The position numbers and the translations under genes are program-made. From contig NZ_JQMQ01000005.1 in the NCBI RefSeq assembly GCF_000744815.1, positions 380,055-444,054 of the forward strand: a stretch of DNA of 64,000 bases. Direction: 5' to 3'. Every line of letters begins with the position of its first letter. The first letter of the stretch is position 1. The notes beneath the pieces are model-generated. The model was not told the DNA's origin. It searched no databases and saw nothing but the letters and a program-made list of their open reading frames with translations. Below, piece after piece: positions 33,498-41,382 of this stretch. The DNA is from Phaeacidiphilus oryzae TH49. GTDB lineage: Bacteria; Actinomycetota; Actinomycetes; Streptomycetales; Streptomycetaceae.

Positions 33498-35483
33498 TCA
33501 GCTCCGGGCCAGGGACGGGATGATGCCGCCGGCGCGGACGACGGCGCGCTGCCGGGTGGAGAGCCGGTGCCGTAGCCGGTACTCGGTGCCGTCCGCGCCG
33601 GTGGCGAGGATCACCGGTGGAGCGTCCTCGGCCAGCGACTGGTGGAGGTCGTCGAGGATCAGCTCGTCGTCGCGGTCCAGGCGGTCGTAGTCCGCCACGT
33701 CCTCGAACTCCAGGGGCAGCACGCCGAAGTTGACCAGGTTCTGCCAGTGGATCCGGGCGAAGGACTTGGCCAGCACGGCGTGGAGGCCGAGCAGCCGGGG
33801 GCAGATCGCCGCGTGCTCGCGGGAGGAGCCCTGGCCCCAGTTCTCACCGGCCACGATGGCGTGCCCGCCGTCCTCCCGGCTCGCCGCCGCCCGCTCCGGG
33901 TAGTCGGGGTCGATCCGGGTGAGGGTGAACTCGGCGAGCTTCGGCAGGTTGGAGCGGTACGGCAGGGCCTTGGCGCCGGCCGGGGAGATCTCGTCGGTGG
34001 AGACGTCGTCGCCGGCCTTCAGCAGCACCCGCAGGGCCAGCCGGTCCGGCAGCGGTTCCAGCTCGGGCAGGGCGGAGATGTTCGGACCGCGCTCCAGCTC
34101 GGTGTCCACCGCCCGCTGGTGCGGCGGGGGCTCCTCGAGGGAGGTGAGGTTGACGGTGTAGCGGTCGGGCTCGGTGAACCGGGGGTACTCAGCCTTGTTC
34201 TCCTCCGCCCAGCGGCGGGGGTCGGTGATCCGGCCGGTCAGCGCGGAGACCGCGGCGGTCTCCGGGGAGCACAGCCACACCGCGTCCTCCTCGGTGCCGG
34301 AGCGGCCGGGGAAGTTGCGCGGGAAGGTGCGCAGCGAGTTGCGGCCGGCGGCCGGCGCCTGCCCCATGCCGATGCAGCCCAGGCAGCCGGCCTGGTGCAG
34401 CCGCGCGCCGGCGGCGATCAGGTCGAGGACCGCCCCGGAGCGGGCGAGGTCCTGGAGGAGCTCGCGGGAGGTGGGGTTGACGTCGAGGCTGACGCCGGGG
34501 GCGGTCTGCCGGCCGGCGACGATCCCGGCGGCCACCGCGAAGTCCCGCAGTCCGGGGTTGGCGGAGGAGCCGATCACCGACTGGGCGATCTCCTCGCCCT
34601 CGACCTCGCCCACGGGCACCACGTCGCCGGGCGAGGAGGGGCGGGCGATCAGCGGCTCCAGGGTGGAGAGGTCGATCTCCTCGGTCTCGTCGTACCGCGC
34701 GTCCGGGCCGGCGGTGAGCATCGCGAAGTCCTCGCCGCGGCCCTGGGCCCGGAGGAAGTCGCGGGTCACCCGGTCGGAGGGGAACACCGAGGCGGTGGCG
34801 CCGAGTTCGGCCCCCATGTTGGCGATGACGTGCCGGTCCATCGCCGAGAGGTGGTCGAGTCCGGGGCCGTGGTACTCCAGGATCCAGCCGACCCCGCCCT
34901 TGACGCCGTGCCGGCGCAGCAGCTCCAGGATGACGTCCTTCGCCGAGACCCAGGGCGGGAGCTGGCCGGTCAGCCGGATGCCCCGGATCCGCGGCATCAC
35001 CAGGTGGAGGGGCTGCCCGGCGATGGCGAGCGCGACCTCGAGTCCGCCGACTCCGACGGCGAGCATCCCCAGCGCCCCCGCGGCGCAGGTGTGGGAGTCG
35101 CTGCCGGCCAGCGAGCGGCCGGGGACGCCGAACCGCTGCATGTGCACCGGGTGCGAGACGCCGTTGCCGGGTTTGGAGTACCACAGGCCGTAGCGGTGGG
35201 CGGCCGAGCGGAGAAAGGCGTGGTCCTCCGCGTTGCGTTCGTCGGCCTGGAGCAGGTTGTGGTCCACGTACTGGACGCTGACCTCGGTCTGCGCCCGGTC
35301 CAGGCCCAGCGCCTCCAGCTCCTGCATCACCAGGGTGCCGGTGGCGTCCTGGGTCAGCGTCTGGTCCACCCGGAGGGCGATCTCCTCGCCGGCGGTCATC
35401 CGCCCCTCGACCAGATGGTCCGCGATCAGCCGGTACGCCAGCGAACCGTTCTGCGCGCTGCGCGCCTCCTGCTCGGCGGTCAT
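33498..35483 (-). CDS. Aconitate hydratase-type dehydratase (single-chain, 661 aa)
   Basis: This 661-residue aconitase-superfamily enzyme holds a [4Fe-4S] cluster. Cluster cysteines are visible in SDSHTCAAGALG and in the pair GCLGCIGMG. The C-terminal swivel domain carries GAKALPYRSNLP and the GENWGQGSSREHAA active-site loop. Size and order match the shorter bacterial aconitate hydratase group rather than 900-residue AcnA or LeuC/LeuD. The ATG at 35483 has GGAGG nearby. It leads an apparent operon with an MFS and a ThrE-type exporter, which is unusual for a housekeeping aconitase, so a specialised hydro-lyase acting on a related tricarboxylate is possible. Confidence 0.9.
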   Translation of the reverse strand: MTAEQEARSAQNGSLAYRLIADHLVEGRMTAGEEIALRVDQTLTQDATGTLVMQELEALGLDRAQTEVSVQYVDHNLLQADERNAEDHAFLRSAAHRYGLWYSKPGNGVSHPVHMQRFGVPGRSLAGSDSHTCAAGALGMLAVGVGGLEVALAIAGQPLHLVMPRIRGIRLTGQLPPWVSAKDVILELLRRHGVKGGVGWILEYHGPGLDHLSAMDRHVIANMGAELGATASVFPSDRVTRDFLRAQGRGEDFAMLTAGPDARYDETEEIDLSTLEPLIARPSSPGDVVPVGEVEGEEIAQSVIGSSANPGLRDFAVAAGIVAGRQTAPGVSLDVNPTSRELLQDLARSGAVLDLIAAGARLHQAGCLGCIGMGQAPAAGRNSLRTFPRNFPGRSGTEEDAVWLCSPETAAVSALTGRITDPRRWAEENKAEYPRFTEPDRYTVNLTSLEEPPPHQRAVDTELERGPNISALPELEPLPDRLALRVLLKAGDDVSTDEISPAGAKALPYRSNLPKLAEFTLTRIDPDYPERAAASREDGGHAIVAGENWGQGSSREHAAICPRLLGLHAVLAKSFARIHWQNLVNFGVLPLEFEDVADYDRLDRDDELILDDLHQSLAEDAPPVILATGADGTEYRLRHRLSTRQRAVVRAGGIIPSLARS

Positions 35484-35600
35484 GGCGGCCTCCTCCCTGA
35501 CTACGTCTCCGTACACGCCTCAGTCGGCGCGGGTACCCGGACGGGAGCGGCCCAGACAGGCGATCGCGGGGTCGGAAGCAGGGCTGCCATCAACCCGACT

Positions 35601-35629
35601 TTGACTTTCGATAAGAAATCATTCAATCT
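35601..35629 (+). promoter_or_regulatory. Promoter for a leaderless transcript ahead of the ABC importer operon
   Basis: TTGACT (35601-35606), a 17-base spacer and CAATCT (35624-35629) lie in a locally A+T-rich patch of the 349-base divergent gap (35484-35832). Transcription would start around 35636-35637, exactly at the ATG of the small upstream ORF. The other side of the gap (35484-35600) shows no gene. Confidence 0.55.
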
Positions 35630-35636
35630 TCTGGTC

Positions 35637-35729
35637 ATGTCCTGTGATCACGCCCCGCTTCGCGCCGCCCATCGGCTGGCTCTCATCGGCGTGACCGGAC
35701 TCTGTGTGGCCGACGTCCACTGTCGCTGA
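35637..35729 (+). CDS. Leaderless 30-residue upstream ORF with C-terminal cysteines (leader peptide candidate)
   Basis: This 30-codon frame begins ATG-TCC-TGT, and its last 16 residues are ALIGVTGLCVADVHCR. Cys codons are at positions 3, 23 and 29. No ribosome-binding site precedes it; instead, the ATG coincides with the predicted transcription start, so it would be translated from a leaderless mRNA. Leaderless uORFs ending in Cys codons act as cysteine-responsive attenuators in mycobacteria, and short Cys-ended leader peptides precede sulfur genes in Streptomyces. The importer gene starts 104 bases downstream. The intervening region is C-rich and G-poor, without a strong hairpin. By analogy it may tie expression of the importer to cysteine supply. 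Confidence 0.55.
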   Translation: MSCDHAPLRAAHRLALIGVTGLCVADVHCR

Positions 35730-35832
35730 GGGCCCCGCCCCGCACCGCGACCTCCGCCACCCCTCTTCTTCACCCCTCACCACACTTCACCGGTCCCGTG
35801 CCTCTCCACGGCCGCGAAAGGCCCGTACAGCC

Positions 35833-37548
35833 ATGTCCCACAGATCTGCCCTGCTCCGCCCGCTCAGCGCCGCCGCCGTCACCGCGGTCCTCGTCGGGGG
35901 GCTCGCCGCCTGCGGGCCGAAGGGCTCCGGCTCCAGCGCCGATTCCGCCCCGCACAAGGGCGGCACGCTGACCGTCCTCGATCAGGGGACGCAGAGCGAC
36001 TTCGACCCCGCGCGGCTCTACACCACCGGCGGCGGCGACGTCCCGTCGCTGGTCTTCCGCACCCTCACCACCCGGGCCCGGGTCAGTGGCGAGGCCGGCA
36101 CCAAGGTCGTGCCGGACCTGGCCACCGACACCGGCGAGCCCTCCGCCAACGCCACGGTGTGGACCTACCACCTCAAGCCGGGGCTGAAGTTCGAGGACGG
36201 GACGGCGATCACCAGCGCCGACATCAAGTACGGGATCGAGCGCTCGTTCGCCCCCGAGCTCTCCGGCGGGCCGCCGTACTTCCGCGACTGGCTGGTCGGC
36301 GGCGCCTCCTACCAGGGCCCGTACAAGGACAAGTCGAAGGACGGGCTGGCCTCGATCGCCACGCCGAACGCCACGACCATCGTCTTCCACCTGACCAAGC
36401 CCGAGGGCGACTTCCCCTACCTCGCCACCATGTCGCAGTTCGCGCCGGTGCCGAAGGCCAAGGACACCGGGGCGGACTACTACAAGCACCCGGTCTCCTC
36501 CGGCCCCTACGAGGTGGTGGAGAACCAGAACGACGGCGTGCAGATCGACTTCAAGCGCAACCCGTACTGGTCGGCCGGCACCGACAGCCAGCGCAAGGCC
36601 TACCCGGACCGGATCGACTACACCGGCGGGCTGGACGCGTCAGTGATCAACCAGCGGCTGTCGACCAGCGCCGGCGCGGACGCCGACGCGGTCACCATCG
36701 ACACCAACCTCGGCCCGTCCGAGCTGGCCCGGGTCCGCAACGACAAGGACCTCGCCTCCCGGGTCGCCACCGGCCACTTCGGCTACACGGACTACCTCGC
36801 CTTCAACCCGAAGGTGAAGCCGTTCAACGACATCCGGGTGCGGGAGGCGATCTCCTACGCGATCAACCGCACCTCGGTGGTGAACGCGGCCGGCGGCTCG
36901 GCCCTGGCCACCCCGGCCACCACCTTCCTGCCGAACCAGAAGGCCTTCGGCTACACGCCGTACGACGCCTTCCCGGCCGGGGCCACCGGCAACGCGGCCA
37001 AGGCCAGGCAGCTGCTGGCGCAGGCCGGTTACCCGCACGGGCTGACCGTCACCCTGACCCACTCCACCTCGGACTCCAGCAACGAGGGCCCGGCGGTGGC
37101 CAGCGCGGTACAGGACGGCCTCAAGGCCGCCGGGATCACCGTCAAGCTCGCCCCGATCCAGGACAGCGACTACTCCAGCACCGTCGACTCGGTGAAGACC
37201 GAGCCGGGATTCTTCCTGGCCGGGTGGGGCGCCGACTGGCCGTCCGGCGGGCCGTTCCTGGCCCCGATCTTCGACGGCCGGCAGATCGTCGCCAACGGCG
37301 CCAACTTCAACTCGGCGCAGTTGAACGACTCCTCGGTGAACGCGGCGATCGACCGGATCGACGCCATCACCGACCACGCCAAGGCCGCCGAGCAGTGGGG
37401 CGCGCTGGACAAGCAGCTCGGGCAGCAGGCGCTGACCGTGCCGCTCTTCCACCCGGTCTACGAGCGGCTGTACGGCAAGAACATCCGCAACGTCGTGATC
37501 AGCGACTGGGACGGCCGGGTCGACGTCGCCGACGTCGCCGTGAAGTAA
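35833..37548 (+). CDS. Peptide/nickel-type ABC substrate-binding lipoprotein (SBP family 5)
   Basis: This 571-residue solute receptor of the Dpp/Opp/Nik class has a Sec signal with lipobox (AAVTAVLVGGLAACGPKG, Cys at about residue 27) and a Ser/Gly linker. The family-5 fold includes YHLKPGLKFEDGTAITSADIKYGIERSF (about 110-140) and the RVREAISYAINRTSVV segment. The ligand cannot be read from sequence: di/oligopeptides, opines, glutathione or metal chelates are all possible. The upstream Cys leader ORF would favour a sulfur-containing ligand. First gene of a four-gene operon, with permease genes directly following. Confidence 0.92.
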   Translation: MSHRSALLRPLSAAAVTAVLVGGLAACGPKGSGSSADSAPHKGGTLTVLDQGTQSDFDPARLYTTGGGDVPSLVFRTLTTRARVSGEAGTKVVPDLATDTGEPSANATVWTYHLKPGLKFEDGTAITSADIKYGIERSFAPELSGGPPYFRDWLVGGASYQGPYKDKSKDGLASIATPNATTIVFHLTKPEGDFPYLATMSQFAPVPKAKDTGADYYKHPVSSGPYEVVENQNDGVQIDFKRNPYWSAGTDSQRKAYPDRIDYTGGLDASVINQRLSTSAGADADAVTIDTNLGPSELARVRNDKDLASRVATGHFGYTDYLAFNPKVKPFNDIRVREAISYAINRTSVVNAAGGSALATPATTFLPNQKAFGYTPYDAFPAGATGNAAKARQLLAQAGYPHGLTVTLTHSTSDSSNEGPAVASAVQDGLKAAGITVKLAPIQDSDYSSTVDSVKTEPGFFLAGWGADWPSGGPFLAPIFDGRQIVANGANFNSAQLNDSSVNAAIDRIDAITDHAKAAEQWGALDKQLGQQALTVPLFHPVYERLYGKNIRNVVISDWDGRVDVADVAVK

Positions 37549-37565: not shown

Positions 37566-38597
37566 ATGAGCACGACCGACGTACTCTCCGGGGCGGCCGA
37601 GCGGGTCGCCCCGGCCACCGGGGCCCGCCAGGTGTGGCAGCGGCTGCGCGCCAACCGCGCCGCCATGGCGGGCCTGGTGGTCCTCGTCCTGCTGGTACTG
37701 GTCGCGGCCACCGCGCCGCTGCTCGCCTCCCTGGAGGGGCAGAGCCCGTACGCCTACCACGACTCGCTGCTGGACTCGGCGCTCGGCGGTTCGCCGATCG
37801 GGTCCTTCGGCGGGATCAGCGGCTCGCACTGGCTGGGGGTGGAGCCCGGCAGCGGGCGCGACCTGTTCGCCCGGCTGGTCTACGGGGCACAGATCTCGCT
37901 GCTGGTCGCGGTGGGCTCGACCGTGGTCCAGGTGCTGGTCGGACTGGCCGCGGGGCTGGCGGCCGGGCTGGGCAACCGCCTCCTGGACCAGGTGCTCGGC
38001 CACACCACGGACGTGATGCTGGCGCTGCCCTCGCTGGTCTTCGCCATCGCGCTGATGGCCGTGGTGCCGTCCGGGTTCCCGCGTCCGCTGCTGCTGATGC
38101 TGGTCATCGGCCTCCTCGGGTGGGGTGGAACGGCCCGGGTGGTGCGGGCGCAGACGCTCGCCCTCAGGGAGCTCGACTACGTCGCGGCGGCCCGGCTGGG
38201 CGGCTCCGGCCCCTGGCGGATCGCCCGCCGGGAGCTGCTGCCCTCGCTGGCCGCTCCGGTGATCACGTACGCGGCGCTGCTGCTGCCGTCCAACGTGGTC
38301 AGCGAGGCCGGGCTGTCCTTCCTCGGCGTGGGTGTCAAGCCGCCGACCGCCTCCTGGGGGCAGATGCTGTCCTCGGCGGCCACCTGGTTCCAGTCCGACC
38401 CGATGTACGTCCTGCTGCCGGCCGTGCTGCTCTTCGTCACCACCCTCTCCTTCACCGTCGTCGGCGACGCGCTGCGAGCCGCGCTCGACCCGCGGTCGGC
38501 CTCCAGGGCCGGGCGGATCAGGCGGCTGCGGCGGAAGCGGACGGCCGCCGAAACCGCGGTCGACGGTGCGGGCCCGACTACCGGAGGTGCGGCATGA
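37566..38597 (+). CDS. ABC transporter permease, DppC/OppC type
   Basis: This 343-residue membrane subunit has a cytoplasmic N-terminus, a first helix (AAMAGLVVLVLLVLVAATAPLLA) and a long extracellular loop with HWLGVEPGSGRDLFARLVYG, typical of DppC. The EAA loop occurs near RELDYVAAARLGGSGPWRIARRELLP. The C-terminus is Arg-rich. It starts 18 bases after the receptor gene and overlaps the next permease as ATGA. Confidence 0.93.
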   Translation: MSTTDVLSGAAERVAPATGARQVWQRLRANRAAMAGLVVLVLLVLVAATAPLLASLEGQSPYAYHDSLLDSALGGSPIGSFGGISGSHWLGVEPGSGRDLFARLVYGAQISLLVAVGSTVVQVLVGLAAGLAAGLGNRLLDQVLGHTTDVMLALPSLVFAIALMAVVPSGFPRPLLLMLVIGLLGWGGTARVVRAQTLALRELDYVAAARLGGSGPWRIARRELLPSLAAPVITYAALLLPSNVVSEAGLSFLGVGVKPPTASWGQMLSSAATWFQSDPMYVLLPAVLLFVTTLSFTVVGDALRAALDPRSASRAGRIRRLRRKRTAAETAVDGAGPTTGGAA

Positions 38598-39583
38598 CGC
38601 GCTTTCTGCTGCGCCGGCTGGCCGGCATGCTGGCCGTCCTCTTCCTCCTCTCGGTCGTGGTCTACGCGGTCTTCTACCTCGCCCCGGGCGACCCCGCGCA
38701 GCTGGCCTGCGGCCCCAAGTGCAGCCCGGCGCAGGTCGCGCAGGTGCGCGAGCGGCTGGGCCTGGACGCCCCGGTGTACCTCCAGTACGCCCACTTCCTC
38801 CAGGGCCTCGTCGCCGGGCGGACGTTCAGCACCGGCACCGGCCTGATGAACTGCCACGCTCCCTGCCTGGGCGTCTCGTACCACACCGGCGAGCAGGTCA
38901 CCTCGATGATCGCGAGCCGGCTGCCGGTCACCGCCTCGCTGGCGCTCGGCGCGATGGTGCTGTGGCTGGCGCTCGGCGTCGGCACCGGGCTCCTCTCCGC
39001 GCTGCGCCGGGGCGGGATCACCGAGCGGGTGCTGACCGGGCTGACCCTGGCCGGGAACGCCGTCCCGGTCTTCGTCATCGGCCTGCTGCTGCTCCTCCTC
39101 TTCTGCGCGTATCTGCAGTGGCTGCCGTTCCCGAGCTACGTCGGGCTGACCGAGGACCCGCAGCAGTGGTTCTGGGGACTGCTGCTGCCCTGGGTGTCGC
39201 TGGCCCTGATCGAGAGCGCCAAGTACGCCCGGCTGACCCGCTCCTCCATGCTGGAGACGCTGGCCGAGGACCACATCAGGACCTTCCGCGCCTACGGCGT
39301 CAGCGAGCGGCGGCTGGTCACCCGGCACGCCCTGCGCGGGGCACTGATCCCGGTGATCGCGCTCAGCGCGATGGACCTGGGCACCATGTTCGGCTCGGCG
39401 GTGCTCACCGAGTCCCTCTTCGGCCTGCCCGGTCTGGGACGGCTGCTGGTCTACTCGGTGAGCGTCATCGACCTGCCGGTGGTGGTCGGCCTGGTGCTGG
39501 TGACCGGCTTCTGCGTGGTGCTCGCCAACGCCTTCGCGGACGTGCTCTACGCCGCCGCCGACCGACGGGTGGTGCTGACATGA
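38594..39583 (+). CDS. ABC transporter permease, DppB/OppB type
   Basis: This 329-residue partner permease opens with MTRFLLRRLAGMLAVLFLLSVVVYAVFYLAPGDPA, the standard DppB start. Its loop sequence is FRAYGVSERRLVTRHALRGALIPVI. Unusually for DppB, the first periplasmic loop has paired cysteines (ACGPKCSPAQ and NCHAPCLG), which could form disulfides. It overlaps both neighbours by four bases (ATGA), so the channel and ATPase are made together. Confidence 0.93.
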   Translation: MTRFLLRRLAGMLAVLFLLSVVVYAVFYLAPGDPAQLACGPKCSPAQVAQVRERLGLDAPVYLQYAHFLQGLVAGRTFSTGTGLMNCHAPCLGVSYHTGEQVTSMIASRLPVTASLALGAMVLWLALGVGTGLLSALRRGGITERVLTGLTLAGNAVPVFVIGLLLLLLFCAYLQWLPFPSYVGLTEDPQQWFWGLLLPWVSLALIESAKYARLTRSSMLETLAEDHIRTFRAYGVSERRLVTRHALRGALIPVIALSAMDLGTMFGSAVLTESLFGLPGLGRLLVYSVSVIDLPVVVGLVLVTGFCVVLANAFADVLYAAADRRVVLT

Positions 39584-41382
39584 CCTCCGCTATCCCCGAG
39601 CAGGGCCGCGCGGCCTCGGACGGGCGGCCGCTCGTCGAGGTGTCCGGTCTCGTGGTGGACTTCCCGGTGGACGACGGGCCCGCGGTCCGGGCGGTGGACG
39701 GCATCGACTTCACCCTGATGCCGGGTCAGGCCCTGGCGCTGGTCGGCGAGTCCGGTTCCGGCAAGAGCACGGTCGCCTCGGCGCTGCTCGGCCTCCACCG
39801 CTCCACCGGGGCCCGGGTGGCGGGCAGCGTACGGGTGGCCGGGGTCGATCCGCTGACCGCCGAGGGCGAGGAGCTGCGCCGGCTGCGCGGCGGTCTGGCG
39901 GCGATGGTCTTCCAGGACCCCCTCTCCTCCCTGGACCCGTACTACTCGATCGGGGACCAGATCGCCGAGGTGTACCGGGTCCACAACCGGGTCGGCCGGC
40001 GGGCGGCCCGGGCCCGGGCGGTGGAGGTGCTGGACCGGGTCGGCATCCCGGACGCGGACCGTCGCGCCCGCTCCCGTCCGCACGAGTTCAGCGGCGGGAT
40101 GCGGCAGCGGGCGCTGATCGCGATGGCACTGGCCTGCGAGCCGCGGCTGCTGGTCGCGGACGAGCCGACCACCGCCCTGGACGTCACCGTGCAGGCCCAG
40201 ATCCTGGACCTGCTGCACGAGTTGCGCGCGGAGACCGGTGCCGGGCTGCTGCTGGTCACCCACGACCTCGGGGTGGCCGCGGGCAGCGTGGACCGGGTGC
40301 TGGTGATGAAGGACGGCCGGGCGGTCGAGGACGGCGAGGTCGGCGACGTGCTGGGCTCGCCGGCCGAGCCGTACACCCGGCGGCTGCTGGACGCGGTGCC
40401 GCGGGTGGAGACCGCGGAGCGGGCCGAGATCGTCGAGCGGGTGGAGACCGTCGAGCGGGTCGCGTCGGTCGAGCGTGACGCTGCCGCGGGAGCGGCGGAG
40501 CCGGTCGCGGAGGACGCCGGGCCGGGCGAGGTGCTGCTCCGGGCGACGGATCTGCGGCGCGAGTTCCATCGGCGCGGGGCGCCCAGGATCGCCGCCGTGG
40601 ACGGCGTCTCGCTGACCGTCGGCGAGGGCGAGGCACTCGGCGTGGTCGGCGAGTCCGGCAGCGGGAAGACCACCCTCGGCCGGATGCTGGTCCGCCTCCT
40701 CGACCCGACCTCGGGCCGGCTGGAGTACCGGGGCCAGGACATCGGCACGCTGAAGGAACGTCAGCTCCGGCCCTTCCGCAGCGAGTTGCAGATGGTCTTC
40801 CAGGACCCGGTGGCCTCGCTCAACCCGCGCCGCAGCATCGGCGAGTCCATCGCCGACCCGCTGCGCGCGGCCGGCGTGCTCGACGAGCGGGGGATCACCG
40901 GCCGGGTGCGGGAACTGCTGGAACGGGTCGGCCTCGACCCCGACTGGTACAACCGCTACCCCCACGAGTTCTCCGGCGGGCAGCGCCAGCGGGTCGGCAT
41001 CGCGCGGGCGCTGGCGCCCGAGCCCCGGCTGATCGTCTGCGACGAGCCGGTCTCCGCACTGGACGTCACCACCCAGGCCCAGGTCGTCGAGCTGCTCGGC
41101 GAACTCCGGCGCGAACTGGGCCTGTCGCTGGTGTTCATCGCCCACGACCTGGCGGTGGTACGGCAGGTCAGCGACCGGGTCGCGGTGATGCGGGCCGGGC
41201 GGGTGGTGGAGAGCGGCACCGTCGAGCGGGTCTTCGAGGCGCCGGCGCACGCGTACACCCGCTCCCTGCTGGACGCCGTGCCGGTCCTCGACCCGGCGGA
41301 GTCGGCGGTCCGCCGGGAGGCGCGCCGCGCGGCCCGCCGGGCGCCCGCAGAGGCGGACGCCCTTGCGGGGCAGGCCAACTGA
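39580..41382 (+). CDS. Fused dual ATP-binding protein of the Dpp/Opp importer
   Basis: This 600-residue protein joins two ABC ATPase domains (DppD-like and DppF-like). Walker A motifs are GESGSGKST (about residue 50) and GESGSGKTT (about 358). Signatures are SGGMRQR and SGGQRQR, with Walker B regions RLLVADEPTTALD and RLIVCDEPVSALD. The inter-domain linker (about residues 273-315) is made of short Glu/Arg/Val repeats such as VETVERVASVERD. Fused DppDF proteins are common in actinomycetes, but the linker repeats are distinctive. Starts inside the DppB stop (ATGA). Confidence 0.94.
   Translation: MTSAIPEQGRAASDGRPLVEVSGLVVDFPVDDGPAVRAVDGIDFTLMPGQALALVGESGSGKSTVASALLGLHRSTGARVAGSVRVAGVDPLTAEGEELRRLRGGLAAMVFQDPLSSLDPYYSIGDQIAEVYRVHNRVGRRAARARAVEVLDRVGIPDADRRARSRPHEFSGGMRQRALIAMALACEPRLLVADEPTTALDVTVQAQILDLLHELRAETGAGLLLVTHDLGVAAGSVDRVLVMKDGRAVEDGEVGDVLGSPAEPYTRRLLDAVPRVETAERAEIVERVETVERVASVERDAAAGAAEPVAEDAGPGEVLLRATDLRREFHRRGAPRIAAVDGVSLTVGEGEALGVVGESGSGKTTLGRMLVRLLDPTSGRLEYRGQDIGTLKERQLRPFRSELQMVFQDPVASLNPRRSIGESIADPLRAAGVLDERGITGRVRELLERVGLDPDWYNRYPHEFSGGQRQRVGIARALAPEPRLIVCDEPVSALDVTTQAQVVELLGELRRELGLSLVFIAHDLAVVRQVSDRVAVMRAGRVVESGTVERVFEAPAHAYTRSLLDAVPVLDPAESAVRREARRAARRAPAEADALAGQAN

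Follow-up and report, generated by a model that had tools for sequence, protein, structure and literature searches.

Upstream of an Opp-type importer operon in the window (the whole 64-kb stretch of DNA analysed here) lies a 30-codon open reading frame (ORF), and the question is whether it is a genuine leader peptide and, if so, what it would sense and how it would control the operon. The ORF (35637..35729, plus strand) encodes MSCDHAPLRAAHRLALIGVTGLCVADVHCR and runs from the ATG at 35637 to the stop codon TGA at 35727-35729, ending TGT CGC TGA. Its promoter (35601..35629, plus strand) consists of the -35 element TTGACT (35601-35606), a 17-nt spacer and the -10 element CAATCT (35624-35629), assigned from the sequence and from the same layout in 81 orthologous loci. 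The earlier note had described a TTGACT-N17-CAATCT promoter with the ATG 7-8 bases further on, a frame with no ribosome site, Cys codons at positions 3, 23 and 29, and about 100 bases between the leader and the importer gene. Direct reading of the sequence agrees with all of this: 7 nt separate CAATCT from the ATG, there is no Shine-Dalgarno (SD)-like purine run before the ATG at 35637, Cys is encoded at positions 3, 23 and 29 of the 30 codons, each time by TGT, and 103 nt (35730-35832) lie between the leader and the importer gene. At the Cys frequency of the genome, the probability of at least three Cys in 29 codons is 0.0015, and TGT accounts for 5.5% of the Cys codons in a sample of 104,794 codons from the window's genome. 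A generic sigma-70 scan detected no promoter at the leader, because the -10 element is weak. Divergent from the leader is a gene for aconitate hydratase (NF005558, 898 bits; 33498-35483, minus strand), whose start and the leader ATG are about 150 nt apart; this gene is not the neighbour of the leader in the Streptomyces loci examined.

The window leader matches the NCBIfam model NF042937, named 'Ms4533A family Cys-rich leader peptide', with 44.9 bits (cut-off 31, E 9.5e-12) over positions 1-30 of 30, and in a profile search it was the only sequence of the window's genome above the cut-off. At E <= 0.001, the model was detected in 40 of 395 sampled genomes of the class, distributed over six genera and three families; a search at the genus level covered the window's genome only. 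This leader family is already recognised in actinobacteria, and the window leader adds one member to it. Besides the full-length profile match, it shares with the family the leaderless-type start, the V-A-D-x-x-C core, the terminal TGT codon and the C-terminal cysteine. It differs in that the mycobacterial-type members mostly end in a run of two to four Cys, whereas the window leader ends ...CVADVHCR, and in that those members precede a sulfate-binding protein gene, whereas the window leader precedes an Opp-type importer. The window leader did not match a further leader model, NF042934, and no Rfam riboswitch or leader was found at the gathering score in the 64-kb window. The name Ms4533A was not found in the literature searched. 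Table 4 of the S. lividans re-annotation includes leader peptides, none of which that table assigns to cysteine.

The first gene of the operon, for which we found the ribosome-binding site GAAAGG (35816..35821, plus strand; GAGAGG or GAAAGG at the orthologues), starts with the ATG at 35833 and encodes a substrate-binding lipoprotein (SBP) of the SBP_bac_5 family and the Opp/Dpp/Gsi type (35833..37548, plus strand; Pfam PF00496, 247.7 bits). It is followed on the same strand by a permease of the OppC/DppC type (37566..38597, start codon approximate; PF00528 and PF12911, with Opp4C at 233 bits, below its cut-off), a permease of the OppB/DppB type (38594..39583; PF19300 and PF00528) and a fused, GsiA-like double ATPase (39580..41382; PF00005 twice and PF08352 twice, with GsiA at 545 bits, below its cut-off). 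By family match, the SBP falls among the generic peptide binders of family 5, and the solved structure closest to it is that of OppA2 (2wok, E 3.2e-84), a protein from clavulanic acid biosynthesis. The best NCBIfam matches of the SBP and the ATPase are the glutathione importer models GsiB and GsiA, respectively, both far under the cut-off (96.5 of 594 bits and 545 of 1077 bits), and the assignment of the operon as the glutathione importer Gsi was rejected on these equivalog cut-offs. The operon is flanked in the window by an aconitase-like gene and an acetyltransferase gene, and in the Streptomyces loci examined by an alpha/beta-hydrolase-like gene upstream and a glycosyltransferase-like gene downstream, the Streptomyces neighbours being named by reading their translations, not by search. 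The neighbourhood of the operon thus differs between the window and these loci, and the leader stays with the operon in both.

The earlier note had proposed an alignment of the leader upstream of orthologous SBP genes, and here the leader proved to be conserved. The orthologous set consisted of the 80 closest SBP homologues in public genomes (68-80% identity) and the window, and a leader was found upstream of the SBP gene in 81/81 of these loci. In a second sample, taken from Streptomycetaceae and partly overlapping the 81, it was present at 29/29 loci of high-identity orthologues and at none of 20 paralogous SBP genes (39-46% identity). The converse also holds, since this SBP gene comes next in 14/14 of the leader loci tested in Streptomycetaceae. 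The promoter layout is shared as well: TTGAC occurs in all 81 orthologous loci, 16-18 nt ahead of a hexamer at positions -13 to -8 from the ATG, and this hexamer reads nAnnnT in 76 of them. Leaderless promoters of S. lividans have the same -10 form, and their mean distance to the transcription start is 6.3 nt (PMC8079986). We infer that the transcript of the importer operon would start at the leader ATG. Among SBP homologues of 60-67% identity, the leaders are often diverged (for example MHAHHHIAPSQPTYQVALLAMCAHSVSDNLCCR) or end in ILC at TGT-TGA, and in one branch of 64-66% identity, a leader could not be recognised within the fetched stretch at six of eight loci, which counts against the attenuator reading. 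Judged from sequence comparison, the window ORF is a real, conserved cysteine leader peptide of the leaderless type, belongs to a named family and precedes an Opp-type importer.

What selection acts on in this peptide is only partly its cysteines. Conservation of the Cys codons, which the earlier note had named as support, extends to codon 29 (35721..35723, plus strand), the proposed stall site and the sole invariant Cys codon, which is TGT in 102/102 leaders; it does not extend to codon 3, which is unconserved, or fully to codon 23, where some relatives encode Ser or Ala. The description of the leader by its Cys codons is therefore right for the invariant terminal Cys and incomplete otherwise: some leaders have one or few Cys (a single terminal one in L113 and L192), and a peptide core is conserved. 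This core, LALIGVTGLCVADVHCR in the window (35676..35726, plus strand), follows the pattern L-A-L-(I)-x-V-x4-V-A-D-x2-C that is common to both leader groups, and its L-A-L, V, V-A-D and C are largely invariant in the 102 leaders, with synonymous change being free. Between the groups, the core has a pS of 0.66 and a pN of 0.31, so that synonymous change is near-saturated; within the second group, the values are 0.63 and 0.21. Differences among leaders at codon positions 1, 2 and 3 amount to 0.41, 0.28 and 0.53, respectively. It was unexpected that the amino-acid sequence, beyond the Cys codons, is conserved in distant bacteria with unrelated transporters encoded downstream. Our suspicion is that stalling depends in part on the nascent chain, because a leader that merely counts Cys codons would not need a conserved core.

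The genes that follow related leaders point to the signal. In the second family, which we take to be the Mycobacteriaceae and relatives, going by the family name and the leader sequences, a leader of the same type (e.g. LALIAVGSSAVADVCCCC) precedes the gene of a sulfate ABC transporter binding protein, the product of which scores over its NCBIfam cut-off. The window's genome itself encodes a second and a third Cys leader, both detected with NF042934. The second, MKQRLDLTRRRHVDLARVSSASCCAAA (29.9 bits; near 798061 of G000:C4, minus strand; L119), is followed by the gene for SfnG, a dimethylsulfone monooxygenase (622.9 bits, cut-off 383), and the third, ending CGRRHVDLLRVSSALCRR (28.8 bits; near 6357874 of G000:C5, minus strand; L123), by an arylsulfotransferase gene (PF14269). 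NF042934, described as cis_reg_atten 'putative leader peptide' (RRHVDLxRVSSAxC), resembles the window leader in that it covers short Cys-ended ORFs before sulfur genes, two of them in the window's genome, but its peptide core is unlike that of the window leader. A weak resemblance of the form (I/V)(E/D)L...V(T/S)xLC was noted between positions 35676-35726 of the window and the NF042934 consensus, and could mean that the two families have an ancestor in common or share a motif that stalls ribosomes. Because related leaders precede genes for a sulfate-binding protein, SfnG and an arylsulfotransferase, cysteine or sulfur supply would be the most economical signal. The earlier note had inferred that the importer takes up a sulfur-containing peptide or amino acid and is switched by cysteine supply; the comparison supports this in part, and the importer may take up a sulfur compound.

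It is likely that the importer is controlled by a cysteine-responsive attenuator built on this leaderless leader peptide of the Ms4533A family, and it would probably be switched on when cysteine is short. Transcription would start at the ATG and ribosomes would translate the 30-codon ORF. With plentiful Cys-tRNA, the ribosomes would finish and leave, the C-rich spacer would be exposed and the transcript would be cut short, most likely by Rho in the window's lineage. A ribosome stalled for want of cysteine would instead cover the end of the leader together with the beginning of the spacer, and the importer would be made. For M. smegmatis, PMC9031893 and PMC13236596 cite Canestrari 2020 as describing cysteine-dependent attenuation by leaderless Cys-rich ORFs. 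Those ORFs are likewise short, of leaderless type and Cys-containing, and an operon for uptake or with a relation to sulfur follows them, but there the Cys codons are contiguous and in the window leader they are spaced, and there the function was tested, whereas that of the window leader is predicted from sequence.

The spacer RNA of the window has the properties that this mechanism would call for. It is 53% C and 19% G, and a C-rich, G-poor, unstructured part (35732..35809, plus strand), which we consider a candidate Rho-loading region, has a C-G excess of 0.46 across its 78 nt. This value exceeds the 99.99th percentile for the two strands of the 64-kb window; only four regions of comparable excess were found in 400 kb sampled, both strands. 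All orthologous spacers have more C than G (mean 0.40 vs 0.25). The window spacer folds no better than shuffled sequences (z 0.45), the RNA of the window leader also folds like shuffled sequence, and a possible weak hairpin, GUCGC/GCGAC, lies at the leader end (35722..35760, plus strand; z -1.16). A classical attenuator with an intrinsic terminator was rejected, there being no terminator-like site in 35480-35900 and no significant fold in the spacer. Rho-dependent attenuation is favoured in the window because its spacer is C-rich, G-poor, without a terminator and unfolded, the profile expected for Rho loading. Downstream of mycobacterial Cys leaders, Rho sites have been suggested as a possibility, on weaker grounds than the spacer of the window provides (PMC1262725). 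Several observations count against the attenuator as outlined: a stall at codon 29 would leave all but the beginning of the C-rich stretch uncovered, the single terminal Cys codon of some leaders leaves little for codon-starvation sensing, the spacer RNA is not conserved between lineages, and blocking the leader end in folding models did not alter SD pairing. A precedent for the proposed logic is TnaC of the E. coli tna operon, an arrest peptide coupled to Rho-dependent termination, in which, as proposed here, the ribosome halts where a short leader ends and thereby covers a C-rich Rho site. TnaC differs in responding to free tryptophan and in not being leaderless, and arrest is a feature of TnaC that is only proposed from sequence at the window leader.

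Control could also be exerted on translation, with no part for Rho, if the spacer refolded onto the SD sequence and start of the SBP gene once the ribosome had left, and a stall at the Cys codon undid this fold and made the site accessible. We regard this as possible, though we incline against it as the general explanation. In 66 aligned Streptomyces spacers, GACGACC can pair with GGTCGTC beside the SD sequence, each pair being kept in 61-66 of 66, with one-sided G-U changes; main-clade Streptomyces have a hairpin across the leader end with z of about -2 to -6; the SD sequence is mostly paired across the orthologous loci (mean 0.81); and the mycobacterial Cys cases are termed translation attenuation in PMC13236596. 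The same helix, however, shows almost no two-sided changes, and the window spacer lacks it, with an SD pairing of 0.46 and a fold like that of shuffled sequences. The idea that stalling frees the SD sequence found no support in simple folding, as modelled mean SD pairing was 0.81 in both states, with the leader end blocked or not, and the effect was clear in 1/81 loci. Also rejected was a single RNA architecture for all lineages, since the window, L002, L003, L010 and L074 do not follow the main-clade pattern. Two further observations concern these folds. Many mycobacterial-type leaders (L091-L118) have a strong hairpin over the last codons and the stop codon (z about -2 to -4), in the same position as in main-clade Streptomyces and with different sequences. 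The consensus fold of L004-L081 allows, in addition to the SD helix, a pairing between the leader codons GAC-AT(C/T) and GATGCGTC at the start of the SBP gene; both are almost invariant, and covariation is uninformative. For the window's genome, we are moderately confident in placing Rho-dependent attenuation first; for the main Streptomyces clade, we give that place to SD sequestration.

Whichever output applies, the leader might mainly be an arrest peptide, in which the nascent LALIxV....VADxxC stalls the ribosome at the terminal Cys codon and senses free cysteine or Cys-tRNA, TGT alone being insufficient. This is a serious candidate, if still somewhat short of an even chance: the core residues are invariant in two groups whose synonymous sites are near-saturated, the changes by codon position are lowest at position 2, and L113 and L192 manage with one terminal Cys; yet the core spans 17 codons only, its conservation could stem from a function of the small protein itself, and the divergent branch retains less of the motif. 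A small protein acting in trans, or an ORF merely feeding ribosomes to the operon, in either case without cysteine sensing, would fit the strong amino-acid conservation but is improbable: within each clade the ORF is strictly linked to one operon type, its last Cys codon is the rare TGT, in the other clade it is followed by sulfate-binding protein genes, and NCBIfam names it a leader peptide. A chance ORF beside a promoter-like sequence is hardly credible; the empty promoter scan and the shuffle-like folding of the window RNA would suit it, and the NF042937 match and the presence of the leader in all orthologous loci refute it. More speculatively, and rather doubtfully as a whole, the cysteine sensor may be a conserved nascent peptide and not a run of hungry codons: LAL(I)xV....VADxxC would arrest at one rare TGT, and different actinobacterial lineages would have coupled it with transporters that are not related, one for sulfate uptake and one for peptide import, as well as with different RNA outputs (SD sequestration, Rho).

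The attenuator reading would tie a peptide importer that is widespread in Streptomyces to cysteine status, and it suggests sulfur-bearing peptides or thiols as the class of its substrates. The comparison also shows that distant families have put one leader peptide to use ahead of transporters that are unrelated, with both its amino-acid sequence and its Cys codons under selection, and it raises the question of whether a nascent chain may help the ribosome to sense cysteine at a single codon.
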